This document shows, in pieces, positions 16,986 through 38,327 of a stretch of 64,000 nucleotides of DNA. How positions within the stretch are numbered: the stretch's first letter is position 1; every line of letters begins with the position of its first letter. A model generated the notes under the pieces. It was not told the DNA's origin. It saw only the letters and a list, made by a program, of their open reading frames with translations, and made no database searches. Origin of the DNA: Roseicyclus mahoneyensis (GTDB lineage Bacteria > Pseudomonadota > Alphaproteobacteria > Rhodobacterales > Rhodobacteraceae); assembly GCF_003148775.1 (NCBI RefSeq), contig NZ_QGGW01000008.1, positions 1 to 64,000 on the forward strand, written 5' to 3'. The translations under genes and the position numbers were made by a program.

Positions 16986-17060
16986 TGGCTGGGGTGGTAG
17001 GATTCGAACCTACGGTACACGGTACCAAAAACCGCTGCCTTACCGCTTGGCTACACCCCA
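16986..17060 (-). tRNA. tRNA-Gln (anticodon TTG)
   Basis: On the minus strand a 75-base cloverleaf begins TGGGGTG and ends CACCCCAG with an encoded CCA. The D arm is AGCCAAGCGGTAAGGC. The anticodon loop TTTTGGT gives TTG. The T arm contains GGTTCGAATCC. All stems pair. It reads CAA and CAG codons. Confidence 0.97.
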
Positions 17061-29043: not shown

Positions 29044-30609
29044 TCAGCCTGCGTCCTTGTAGGACACTTCCTTGGCGTCCGATCCCAGCTTTTCGCGCCG
29101 CACAATCAGGCGGTTGAGCGCGTTCACATAGGCCTTAACGCTCGCCACCACCGTATCGGTATCCGCCGACTGACCCGTGGCGATGCGCCCGTCCTCCTCG
29201 ACCCGCACCGTCACGGTCGCTTGCGCGTCCATGCCTTCGGTCACCGCGCTGACCTGAAACAGCTGCAACACCGCCTCGTTTGGATAAAGCGCCTTGACCG
29301 CGTTGAAGGCCGCATCGACGGGCCCGTCGCCCTGGGCCGTCGCCTGCCGGTCCTTCTCGCCGACGCGCAGAGTGATGTCGGCCGATTGCGGCGCCTCGGT
29401 CCCGCAGATCACGCGCAGGAACTTCAGTTCCAGATGGTCGGCCTGGCCTGCGGCGGCGGCATCGGTCACCAGCGCGATCACGTCATCGTCGAAAACTTCC
29501 TTCTTGCGGTCGGCCAGCGCCTTGAACCGCACGAACAGGTCGTTCAGCTGGTTGTCGACCATGTCGAAGCCCAGCTCCCTGAGCTTCGCCCGCAGCGCGG
29601 CCCGGCCTGAATGCTTGCCAAGCGGCAGTGAGGTGCCCGACAGGCCCACGTCCTCGGGGCGCATGATCTCGAACGTGTCCGCGCTTTTCAGCATCCCGTC
29701 CTGATGGATGCCGGACTCATGCGCAAAGGCGTTCTTGCCAACGATGGCCTTGTTGGGCTGCACCGCGAAGCCTGACACGGTCGAGACCCGGCGCGAGATG
29801 TGCATGATCTTGGTCGTGTCGATGCCGGTCGTGTAGGGCATGATGTCATGGCGGACCTTCATCGCCATCACGACCTCTTCCAGCGCGGTGTTGCCCGCGC
29901 GCTCGCCCAGCCCGTTGATCGTGCATTCGATCTGCCGCGCGCCGCCAGCGACAGCGGCCAAGGCATTGGCCGTCGCCATGCCCAGATCGTTGTGGCAATG
30001 CGTGGCAAAGATCACGTCCTCCGCCCCGGGCACGTCCGCGATCAGGCGACGGATAAGGTCGGCCGATTCCACCGGCGCGGTATAGCCCACGGTATCGGGC
30101 ACGTTGATCGTCGTGGCGCCCGCCTTGATGGCGATTTCCACCACGCGCCTGAGGTAATCCCACTCCGTCCGGGTCGCGTCCATCGGCGACCATTGAACAT
30201 TGTCGCACAGGTTGCGGGCATGGGTGACCGTCTCGTGAATGCGTTCGGCCATCTGGTCCATGGTCAGGTTCGGAATCGCGCGGTGCTGCGGGCTGGTGCC
30301 GATAAAAGTATGGATACGCGGGGATTTGGCGTGGCGGACGGCCTCCCAGCAGCGGTCGATGTCTTTGAGGTTCGCGCGGGCGAGGCCACAGATCGTGGCG
30401 CGCTTGGCCAGTTTGGCAATCTCGGACACGGCGGCGAAATCGCCTTCGGAGGCGATGGGAAACCCCGCCTCGATAATGTCGACGCCCATGTCGTCAAGCA
30501 GCGCCGCGATCTCCAGCTTTTCCTCGTGGCTCATGGTCGCGCCGGGCGATTGCTCGCCGTCGCGCAGCGTCGTGTCGAAAATCAGGACGCGGTTCTTTTC
30601 GGTGGTCAT
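29044..30609 (-). CDS. leuA: 2-isopropylmalate synthase
   Basis: The 521-residue enzyme condenses acetyl-CoA with 2-oxoisovalerate, the first step of leucine synthesis. The HMG-CoA-lyase-type TIM barrel (about 8-275) has VLIFDTTLRDGEQSPGATM, RPEDVGLSG and the metal-binding HCHNDLGMATANALAAVAGG; GKNAFAHESGIHQDGMLK follows. The C-terminal LeuA dimerisation/leucine-sensing domain spans about 375-505. Length and domains are those of the long LeuA form with feedback inhibition. AAGGA lies 8 bases before ATG 30609, and a Leu-rich leader peptide lies upstream. Confidence 0.97.
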   Translation of the reverse strand: MTTEKNRVLIFDTTLRDGEQSPGATMSHEEKLEIAALLDDMGVDIIEAGFPIASEGDFAAVSEIAKLAKRATICGLARANLKDIDRCWEAVRHAKSPRIHTFIGTSPQHRAIPNLTMDQMAERIHETVTHARNLCDNVQWSPMDATRTEWDYLRRVVEIAIKAGATTINVPDTVGYTAPVESADLIRRLIADVPGAEDVIFATHCHNDLGMATANALAAVAGGARQIECTINGLGERAGNTALEEVVMAMKVRHDIMPYTTGIDTTKIMHISRRVSTVSGFAVQPNKAIVGKNAFAHESGIHQDGMLKSADTFEIMRPEDVGLSGTSLPLGKHSGRAALRAKLRELGFDMVDNQLNDLFVRFKALADRKKEVFDDDVIALVTDAAAAGQADHLELKFLRVICGTEAPQSADITLRVGEKDRQATAQGDGPVDAAFNAVKALYPNEAVLQLFQVSAVTEGMDAQATVTVRVEEDGRIATGQSADTDTVVASVKAYVNALNRLIVRREKLGSDAKEVSYKDAG

Positions 30610-30777
30610 GTCGTGTTTCCTTAGCGGTGTTTTGGCTGTCTCATCCGGCGCTGTCCCTCCCCTGAGCGGTCGCGCCGAAAGGCACGCTCAGAGGCGGCTA
30701 AGGAGCAGAAGGCCAAGCAGGGCGGTGCTGCGCGCAAAGGGCGCGGCACGGGTATCGATATGGGCCTGCATGGTCAT
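30610..30777 (-). promoter_or_regulatory. leuA leader: candidate translational attenuator
   Basis: The 168-bp leader contains a small ORF with a Leu-codon run. Its bases TCCTTAGC (minus strand, 30704-30697, in the Leu codons) are the exact complement of GCTAAGGA (30625-30618), which contains the leuA ribosome binding site. A competing hairpin forms from CTGAGCG (30691-30685, spanning the leader stop) and CGCTCAG (30668-30662), extended by GCC-TTTC-GGC. No T run follows the hairpin, so classical termination is not obvious. Sequestration of the ribosome binding site when leucine is ample fits better. This is inference from pairing. Confidence 0.6.
30688..30777 (-). CDS. leuL: Leucine-rich leader peptide upstream of leuA
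   Basis: The 29-residue frame MTMQAHIDTRAAPFARSTAL-LGLLLLSRL has seven leucines among the last eleven codons (CTG CTT GGC CTT CTG CTC CTT AGC CGC CTC), then TGA. It ends 78 bases before leuA on the same strand. Leader peptides rich in the end-product amino acid are the hallmark of attenuation. The start could be ATG 30777, the in-frame ATG 30771, or ATG 30795 upstream; none has a strong ribosome binding site. The symbol follows the E. coli leader by analogy only. Confidence 0.65.
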   Translation of the reverse strand: MTMQAHIDTRAAPFARSTALLGLLLLSRL

Positions 30778-30868
30778 GGCATTGAAATTACCCATCCGGA
30801 GACATTTGAAAACCCCCAATCGGGTCAAGGGGATTGACCGATCGCCACCGCGCCATAGCTGATCGGTC

Positions 30869-31534
30869 ATGGAACATGCACTCGTCATCGGCGCCTCGGG
30901 CGGCATTGGCCGCGCCGTAGCTCAAGAACTGCGCGCGCGCGGCGCGACCGTCACCACCTTGTCGCGCGCGGCGGACGGGCTTGATGTGACCGATGCCGCC
31001 AGTGTCGCGCAGGCAATGGGCAGGCTGGAGGGGCCGTTCCAGACCGTCTTCATCTCGGTCGGCATACTGGCCCCCGAGGGCGCCAGCCCCGAAAAGCAGC
31101 TCTCCGCCATCGACCCCGCGAGCATGGCGCGCGTCTTTGCCGTCAACACCATCGGCGTGGCGCAGGTTCTGTCAAACCTGCCACGTCTGTTGCCGAAAAA
31201 GGGGCGGTCCGTTACTGGTGTGCTGACCGCCAAGGTCGGATCCATCGGCGACAACAAGATCGGAGGCTGGCATTCCTACCGCGCCTCCAAGGCCGCGCTG
31301 AACCAGATCGTGCATGGTGCGGGCATCGAACTGGCCCGTTCCCACCGCGACGCGGTGATCGCGGCGCTCCACCCCGGCACGGTCGATACGTCCTTCACCG
31401 AAGGCTACAACCCCGGCTACGGCAAGACCGCGCCGGATGAGGCCGCGCGCAACCTTTGCGACGTGATGGCACGTCTGACGACCGCACAATCGGGCGGGTT
31501 CTACGACTATTCCGGCGCGGAGCTGCCGTGGTGA
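30869..31534 (+). CDS. Short-chain dehydrogenase/reductase
   Basis: The 221-residue NAD(P)-dependent SDR has the cofactor loop GASGGIG (residues 8-14), catalytic YRASK (YxxxK) and an upstream Ser in TAKVGSIGDNK. Compact length and sequence resemble the CsgA/C-factor-like SDRs. The substrate is unknown. Its stop overlaps the GTG start of the photolyase gene (GTGA), so the two are translationally coupled. Confidence 0.9.
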   Translation: MEHALVIGASGGIGRAVAQELRARGATVTTLSRAADGLDVTDAASVAQAMGRLEGPFQTVFISVGILAPEGASPEKQLSAIDPASMARVFAVNTIGVAQVLSNLPRLLPKKGRSVTGVLTAKVGSIGDNKIGGWHSYRASKAALNQIVHGAGIELARSHRDAVIAALHPGTVDTSFTEGYNPGYGKTAPDEAARNLCDVMARLTTAQSGGFYDYSGAELPW

Positions 31535-38090: not shown

Positions 38091-38171
38091 GTCGGTTTTG
38101 ATGACCAAAGCGCCGGGATTGCACAAGGCCCCTTGCGGCCTGCCCGAAGCCTGTTATTTTCCCGCCATCGA

Positions 38172-38327
38172 CGCAGGGAGACGCTGGCCGGGAACGGTCA
38201 GGGCCGAAGGAGCAACCGCCCCGGTAAACTCTCAGGCAAAAGGACCTGCGCCGGTACGACAACTCTGGAGAGTGGTGCGCCAGACGCATCCGCCGACGGG
38301 ATAACGATCTCAGGCGACAGGACAGAG
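38172..38327 (+). promoter_or_regulatory. Tandem glycine riboswitch (gcvT leader)
   Basis: Two aptamers lie in series. The first (38172-38250) is closed by CGCAGG/CCTGCG and contains GGGCCGAAGGAGCAACCGCC and CTCTCAGGCAAAAGGACC. The second (38263-38327) is closed by CTCTG/CAGAG and contains CGCCGACGGGATAACGATCT and CAGGCGACAGGACAG. These match the consensus core of the gcvT glycine riboswitch. The gcvT ATG is 73 bases downstream. Known family behaviour is activation of the glycine cleavage operon when glycine is abundant. Confidence 0.95.

Follow-up and report, generated by a model that had tools for sequence, protein, structure and literature searches.

The gene for 2-isopropylmalate synthase, leuA, is preceded in Roseicyclus mahoneyensis by a small reading frame rich in leucine codons, and the locus raises the question of whether, and at which level, this frame governs the gene. 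Here, we address this question for a stretch of 64,000 nucleotides (contig NZ_QGGW01000008.1, positions 1 to 64,000, henceforth the window) and for the leuA loci of its relatives. The leuA gene (29044..30609, minus strand; 521 aa; Pfam HMGL-like and LeuA_dimer) is the sole full-length match within its own genome. On the same strand, the leader peptide frame MTMQAHIDTRAAPFARSTALLGLLLLSRL, read from the sequence and kept in relatives, occupies 30688..30777 including its stop codon and comprises 29 codons, 7 of them for Leu, with a spacer of 78 nt between the stop and leuA. The last Leu codons contain TCCTTAGC (30697..30704, minus strand), which is complementary in 8 of 8 positions to GCTAAGGA (30618..30625, minus strand), including the likely leuA Shine-Dalgarno sequence TAAGGA located 8 nt before the ATG. 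We refer to this helix as the base stem; both of its strands were assigned from sequence and shuffles, and the 5' strand also from covariation. Additionally, an alignment of 94 sequences defines a hairpin, S1, with the 5' strand CCTCTGAGCG (30685..30694, minus strand), which holds the leader stop TGA, and the 3' strand CGCTCAGGGG (30659..30668, minus strand). Pairing counts against shuffles further point to a pseudoknot stem, S2, between CGGCGC in the S1 loop (30672..30677, minus strand) and GCGCCG (30646..30651, minus strand). According to our covariance model of the element, R1, the leader element is single-copy in its own genome. The first-pass annotation of this DNA had described the 29-codon frame with its seven Leu codons 78 nt before leuA, the 8-of-8 pairing around the leuA ribosome-binding site and a second hairpin enclosing the leader stop, and all three are present in the sequence as described.

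The putative promoter of the leader lies remarkably near the start codon. A candidate -10 hexamer, TAATTT (30785..30790, minus strand), ends 7 nt before the leader ATG and keeps its spacing in relatives, and a candidate -35 hexamer, TTTTCA (30807..30812, minus strand), proposed from the sequence only, lies 16 nt further up; a CTTTTC-like stretch is found at about the -35 distance in many of the relatives. A strict sigma-70 consensus scan of the window returned no site at the leader promoter. With the leader ATG picked by peptide pattern or length and not by the hexamer (2 of 94 loci were dropped), the end of a TAnnnT hexamer falls 7 or 8 nt upstream of that ATG in 67 of 92 loci, and each other single spacing accounts for 0-4 loci. 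Because TAnnnT stands so close to the leader ATG, the 5' end of the mRNA is expected at the AUG or beside it, and from this promoter spacing a leaderless start of the leader is likely within the order. A divergent open frame (window 30869-31534, plus strand), which looks by its motifs like a short-chain dehydrogenase, starts about 90 nt from the leader start and would share the intergenic stretch with the leader promoter.

The leader does not belong to the familiar classes of attenuators and riboswitches. As the first-pass annotation had stated, no T run follows the hairpin; a scan of the window found no terminator-like site, and TTTT occurs within 20 nt of S1 in only 2/94 loci (order) and 6/63 loci. 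Classical transcription attenuation of the leu/trp type, from which the proposed control had been said to differ, was thus rejected, as there are hardly any T runs and no terminator hairpin followed by one. Neither the window leader nor 13 related loci matched Rfam at the gathering score, and at E values up to 10 the region 30500-30900 gave only three matches, all far below the gathering score; a known riboswitch or Rfam leader was rejected on these grounds. Elsewhere in the window, Rfam identified a glycine riboswitch aptamer (38165-38257, plus strand; RF00504, 59.5 bits) and a tRNA gene (16989-17060, minus strand; RF00005, 65.3 bits).

Taken alone, the pairing seen in the window is unlikely to be of chance origin, but chance would not be astonishing. 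Of all 8-mers that the final nine codons of the leader contain, only TCCTTAGC finds its exact complement in the spacer. When the last 30 nt were shuffled by mononucleotides, 210 of 20000 shuffles gave an exact complement of 8 nt, and when the linker was shuffled by dinucleotides, 1 of 200 shuffles gave an equally good helix. Some of this complementarity is easily come by, as the Leu codons CTC and CTT resemble an anti-Shine-Dalgarno sequence. The folding energy of the whole region in the window is ordinary compared with shuffles (z -0.18) and not informative. For these reasons we turned to the relatives, and the evidence for more than chance is comparative.

The small frame proved to be conserved in close relatives. 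The leader with its stop hairpin was present in 110/110 leuA loci first examined in the order, under a search pattern that asked for at least three Leu in the last nine codons and a TGA inside TGAGCG...GCTC, so that this string is itself part of the pattern. These loci, representing 101 distinct element stretches, consist of the best 80 named ones and 30 from a second, overlapping set that includes the window; by title, the named loci are nearly all Rhodobacterales, with a few labelled only 'Proteobacteria' or 'Alphaproteobacteria' and one Maritalea. Six further, divergent leuA places of the same family fit the pattern in 2 cases and match R1 in all 6 (36.5-74.6 bits). After removal of 16 of the 110 loci as near-duplicates, 94 sequences formed the alignment A1, in which Leu occupies codon -4 of 94/94 sequences, codon -6 of 91, codon -5 of 85 and codon -7 of 74, the third bases varying, and the last leader residue is mostly Leu (73/94). 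The element is also found on a 17.9-kb plasmid of Phaeobacter inhibens (NZ_CP081282.1), where leuA and its leader element (L235 1391-3072; R1 70.3 bits) occur together, and the switch can thus travel with the gene.

Among the aligned sequences, covariation is shown in all three helices, S1, S2 and the base stem, to differing extents. In S1, 97.0% of cells are paired, with two-sided changes at 4 of 10 pairs and 4 pairs invariant; in one locus outside the alignment (L240 840-920), the stop inside S1 is TAA and a T replaces the opposite C, which preserves the pair; this two-sided change falls at a pair that is invariant in the 94 aligned sequences. S2 is an H-type pseudoknot between the S1 loop and a stretch after S1. 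Here, 94.1% of cells are paired, 22 cells carry two-sided changes compared with 5.3 in shuffles (0/500 shuffles as high), and 58/94 sequences of the order beat their shuffles at 0.05. Two of five count measures for S2 alone were not above shuffles, namely the number of pairs with two-sided change (83/500 shuffles as high) and the number of pair types (431/500). An internal hairpin that excludes S2, S3 (TGCC:GGCG), is 98.9% paired but almost invariant, and RNAalifold as run drew S1 together with S3. In columns 25-34 and 46-59 of A1, TGAGCGTGCC and GGCGCG..GCTC are more invariant across the 94 sequences than base pairing requires.

For the base stem, the leader strand and the start region downstream change together. 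Of the loci with TTAGC in the leader, 38/65 carry GCTAA in the linker, compared with 0/28 other loci, and leaders with TAAGC have GCTTA downstream in 8/12 loci, compared with 2/81 others. Among the rarer leader types, the partner is found for TAACC:GGTTA in 1/1 (L105), for TGAAC:GTTCA in 1/2 (L077) and for TTAGT:ACTAA in 1/2 loci, and an exact 5-mer partner is absent for seven rarer types (11 loci of 93). In total, 49/93 loci have an exact 5-mer partner in their own linker, compared with a mean of 28.4 and a maximum of 37 in 1000 permutations; since related sequences are not independent, these counts stand for a few events and not dozens. The duplexes between leaders and their own ribosome-binding sites average -14.0 kcal/mol, compared with -11.2 after permutation, with 0/5000 permutations as low (n=93, the 94 aligned sequences minus L070, in which no start was found). 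Dinucleotide shuffles were beaten at 0.05 by only 47/93 loci, 7 linkers being too short because of a wrong start.

The pairing proposed by the first-pass annotation thus covaries across relatives, and direct masking of the Shine-Dalgarno sequence is predicted for the window, but is not a general rule. Under the energy model, 57/93 loci pair 4 nt or more of the stretch from -14 to -5. The end of the best contiguous stem lies no more than 12 nt from the ATG in 34/93, 13-20 nt away in 29, 21-31 nt away in 23 and more than 31 nt away in 1/93, with no stem scored in 6/93. In loci whose stem ends beyond 12 nt, the Shine-Dalgarno sequence is separate from the helix, which runs next to it or upstream of it.

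A natural transplant is provided by 8/93 loci (L023, L025, L026, L036, L055, L065, L074 and L105), in which a gene of 117-118 codons is inserted between the leader and leuA. The inserted gene encodes a Cupin_2 protein (Pfam) in L065, the translations of L023 and L105 look alike, and in L025, L026, L036, L055 and L074 it is known by ORF length. In 6/8 of these loci (L023, L026, L055, L065, L074 and L105), the base stem ends 4-8 nt before the ATG of the inserted gene and not that of leuA, although about 7% of shuffles give a stem as good in L023 and L074; no convincing base stem was found in L025 and L036. Comparison of these loci shows that the pairing mostly follows the first gene downstream. 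In the six loci the inserted gene has taken over the paired start region, and such a gene with a masked start region represents a natural test of the mechanism.

Related leaders appear to extend well beyond the order, in a form that differs from that of the window. R1 matched in 8/387 alphaproteobacterial genomes, 2 of those 8 outside the family, and in small searches four distant leaders were matched weakly (E 4e-4 to 0.01). Two alphaproteobacterial loci outside the family have model matches upstream of leuA (L121 1501-1585 and L122 1501-1581), and in L122 the stop is TAG with the hairpin pairing preserved. The class sample covered the stretch directly upstream of leuA at 111 of 120 other leuA places, 3 of them from the window's own family. 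A related leader with stop hairpin was present at 64/111 loci, compared with 67/2220 shuffles, under a criterion of two or more Leu among the final six codons together with a hairpin starting exactly 4 nt before the stop, this offset having been fixed after a run with open offset had shown it. The hairpin is mostly CCCCTGA...TCAGGGG, and the leaders end in LLLLIRP, LRLTRP, LRLIVP and the like, with Pro before the stop in 57/64; one of the 64 (L232) looks like chance. By the strict pattern, 47/111 loci are without the element; some of these (L123 and L124, whose leader is more distant, and L143) carry it in a form that the pattern or the distance limit misses, and others appear to lack it.

Further comparisons used 56 of the 64 loci, after removal of L125 (same family), L232 and 6 near-duplicates. 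In these distant loci, the duplexes between leader and ribosome-binding site average -11.5 kcal/mol, compared with -9.6 after permutation (0/5000 as low), and only 13/56 loci surpass, at 0.05, shuffled versions of their start region. The pseudoknot reached 0.05 in 1/56 of the distant loci and was rejected as a class-wide feature; the same holds for the leaderless leader, since only 5/56 have TAnnnT at 5-9 nt upstream of a leader ATG in frame. The form found elsewhere in Alphaproteobacteria is simpler and perhaps older.

Based on these comparisons, we consider it probable that the leader is a ribosome-mediated translational attenuator of leuA, with the response to leucine, the stalling, the control at translation initiation and the role of the pseudoknot as a latch all being what we infer. 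The first transcribed nucleotide would be that of the leader AUG or a neighbouring one, and translation of the leader would be leaderless. With ample charged Leu-tRNA, ribosomes would pass the Leu codons, stop inside S1 and leave, whereupon S1, the S2 pseudoknot and the base stem could form and the base stem would tie up the leuA Shine-Dalgarno sequence. With scarce Leu-tRNA, ribosomes would dwell on the Leu codons and cover the 5' strand of the base stem together with part of S1, and the leuA site would stay open. The core of this mechanism had been put forward in the first-pass annotation, and it is well supported by the comparison of relatives.

Folding predictions, in which a stalled ribosome was modelled by blocking 30 nt around each Leu codon and the pseudoknot was left out of the calculation, are consistent with this mechanism to a variable degree. 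For the window, blocking the Leu codons lifts the predicted unpaired probability of the Shine-Dalgarno sequence from 0.22 to 0.59. Across 87 of the 94 loci (7 were skipped), the predicted mean rises from 0.42 to 0.55, compared with 0.39 when an equal stretch is blocked elsewhere; the value rises in 64/87 loci, and by at least 0.2 in only 32/87. For the wider stretch from -20 to +3, the predicted mean changes from 0.50 to 0.57, with a gain of 0.2 in only 5/87 loci. With the ribosome placed at the stop codon, the predicted unmasking of the Shine-Dalgarno sequence equals that with a ribosome on the Leu codons (0.55), and the masked state would thus need prompt release. The extra conservation of TGAGCGTGCC and GGCGCG..GCTC is something that the proposed mechanism does not explain.

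Other ways of using the same leader have to be weighed against these data. Nascent chains of the TnaC kind slow or arrest ribosomes, and the leader peptide itself might act in this manner at its end or stop codon, with the held ribosome opening the structure. The proline before the stop in most of the class-wide leaders (as in LRLTRP) and the predicted unmasking by a stop-codon ribosome would suit such an arrest, and PMC9973294 describes for CutF of Rhodobacter capsulatus how slowed translation opens a shielding stem and so controls cutO. However, the last residue in the window's order is mostly Leu and not Pro, the residues before the stop differ (SRL, IRP, RCP, IVP, SSA), and the identity of the last codon may be set by RNA pairing, since this codon belongs to the S1 strand; we regard arrest by the peptide as quite improbable. 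Control of transcription without a classical terminator, in which a freed ribosome would expose the untranslated leader to Rho while stalled ribosomes or structure would prevent termination, is a somewhat better candidate, yet still unlikely. It would fit the near lack of T runs, none of them terminator-like in the window, and the untranslated gap of 78 nt, which is partly C-rich in some relatives, and Rho is raised for cys leaders of Actinobacteria in PMC1262725. However, it leaves unexplained both the covariation of the Leu-codon strand with the start region of the first gene and the position of the helix at the start of the inserted gene.

Least probable, in our assessment, is that a regulatory protein or leucine itself is bound by the element and that the leader peptide is incidental. 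PMC1262725 proposes a protein for the actinobacterial LEU element, and the strong conservation of TGAGCGTGCC..GGCGCG..GCTC beyond pairing needs in the 94 aligned sequences would fit this reading. However, the Leu codons are kept though their third bases vary, distant relatives keep the leader and stop hairpin but not S2, and close homologues of the candidate protein are stated in that source to be found only in Actinobacteria. The translational attenuator remains the reading that we prefer, and it can be set beside the systems already described. Among the literature matches listed, titles and abstract openings describe no alphaproteobacterial leader of this kind; Vitreschak 2004 and Lopatovskaya 2010, which may have dealt with leuA of Alphaproteobacteria, lie outside that scope.

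In erm-type translational attenuators, stalling on an upstream frame opens a stem over the Shine-Dalgarno sequence of the next gene, and the signal is a drug acting via the nascent chain. The proposed leuA mechanism resembles this type, and likewise the CutF-cutO system, in that stalling or slowing on an upstream frame opens the stem that shields the next Shine-Dalgarno sequence. In the published account of CutF (PMC9973294), the signal is copper through the nascent chain, whereas in the leuA leader the control codons for the end product are the masking strand itself. The Leu leader attenuators of Gammaproteobacteria, as given for Shewanella in PMC2659441, likewise place a leader with Leu codons before leuA; unlike the leader studied here, where a terminator is absent, they are described there as ending in terminator and antiterminator stems.

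The nearest known system is the actinobacterial LEU element (Seliverstov et al. 2005, PMC1262725), the mechanism of which is unsettled. As outlined in that paper, a leader with a Leu run has its Leu codons paired with the leuA Shine-Dalgarno sequence and forms a pseudoknot; the authors were doubtful of attenuation and put forward a protein. The paper reports for leuA of Streptomyces coelicolor that leader changes gave effects not fitting classical attenuation, and elsewhere mentions that Leu-codon mutations were without influence on regulation, which counts against translational attenuation. The leuA leader of Streptomyces lividans, MRFGLLLLSCRGEGL, is described in PMC8079986 as leaderless and without a typical terminator. 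The window and its relatives share with the LEU element the Leu-run leader directly upstream of leuA, the stem between Leu codons and leuA Shine-Dalgarno sequence (in relatives only partly, as the stem ends more than 12 nt from the ATG in 53/93 loci) and a pseudoknot closed by the base stem with other attenuator parts missing, seen here as S1 and S2 in 94 sequences of the order. For the alternative hairpin on the base stem of the LEU element, the almost invariant S3 would be the candidate counterpart. In contrast, the LEU element is actinobacterial and belongs to another phylum, and in the distant Alphaproteobacteria sampled, leader, stop hairpin and pairing occur but the pseudoknot was not seen.

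The likeness was followed in one actinobacterium, Nocardia farcinica, where the leuA upstream region (L234) holds the leader MQRALLLGRRDGV, an S1 of 10 bp, an S2 of GACCGGC:GCCGGTC (2/100 shuffles as good) and then the ribosome-binding site, with 77 nt from the leader stop to the leuA ATG. The order of elements (Leu codons, S1, S2, ribosome-binding site) is the same as in the window's order, whereas the leader stop lies inside S1 in the latter and in the S1 loop in Nocardia, and the Nocardia base stem is weak by our scoring (TTCTTC:GGAGAA). In this single actinobacterium compared, R1 gave no match at the leader (788 on), and its sole weak match in L234 (1389-1449; 12 bits, E 0.22) falls inside leuA. 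As no sequence homology to this actinobacterial example was recognised, we class the leader as working like the LEU element and not as a member of it.

By sequence comparison, the leader is real, conserved and covarying, and it works like the LEU element in a different phylum; the pseudoknot after the stop, the likely leaderless start, the spread through the class and the LEU element precedent are new beyond the first-pass annotation. Since no Rfam family matched, the element could become a new annotated family. We regard as evenly balanced the broader proposition that one ancient translational leuA switch, in which the hungry codons serve as the anti-Shine-Dalgarno strand, runs across Alphaproteobacteria, and that Rhodobacterales added a pseudoknot latch at the stop of the leader and a leaderless start and so reached the three-helix architecture of the LEU element. 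If this were true, the LEU element would also work by ribosome position and need no special regulatory protein. The plan of a pseudoknot with a base stem recurs here in a phylum reported, in the account of PMC1262725, to be without close homologues of the proposed LEU protein, and the unsettled actinobacterial element would become testable in tractable laboratory bacteria. Further, if the proposed attenuator is what it appears to be, a gene central to amino-acid synthesis would, across a large part of a bacterial class, be under translational control, and not under that of a textbook transcription attenuator.
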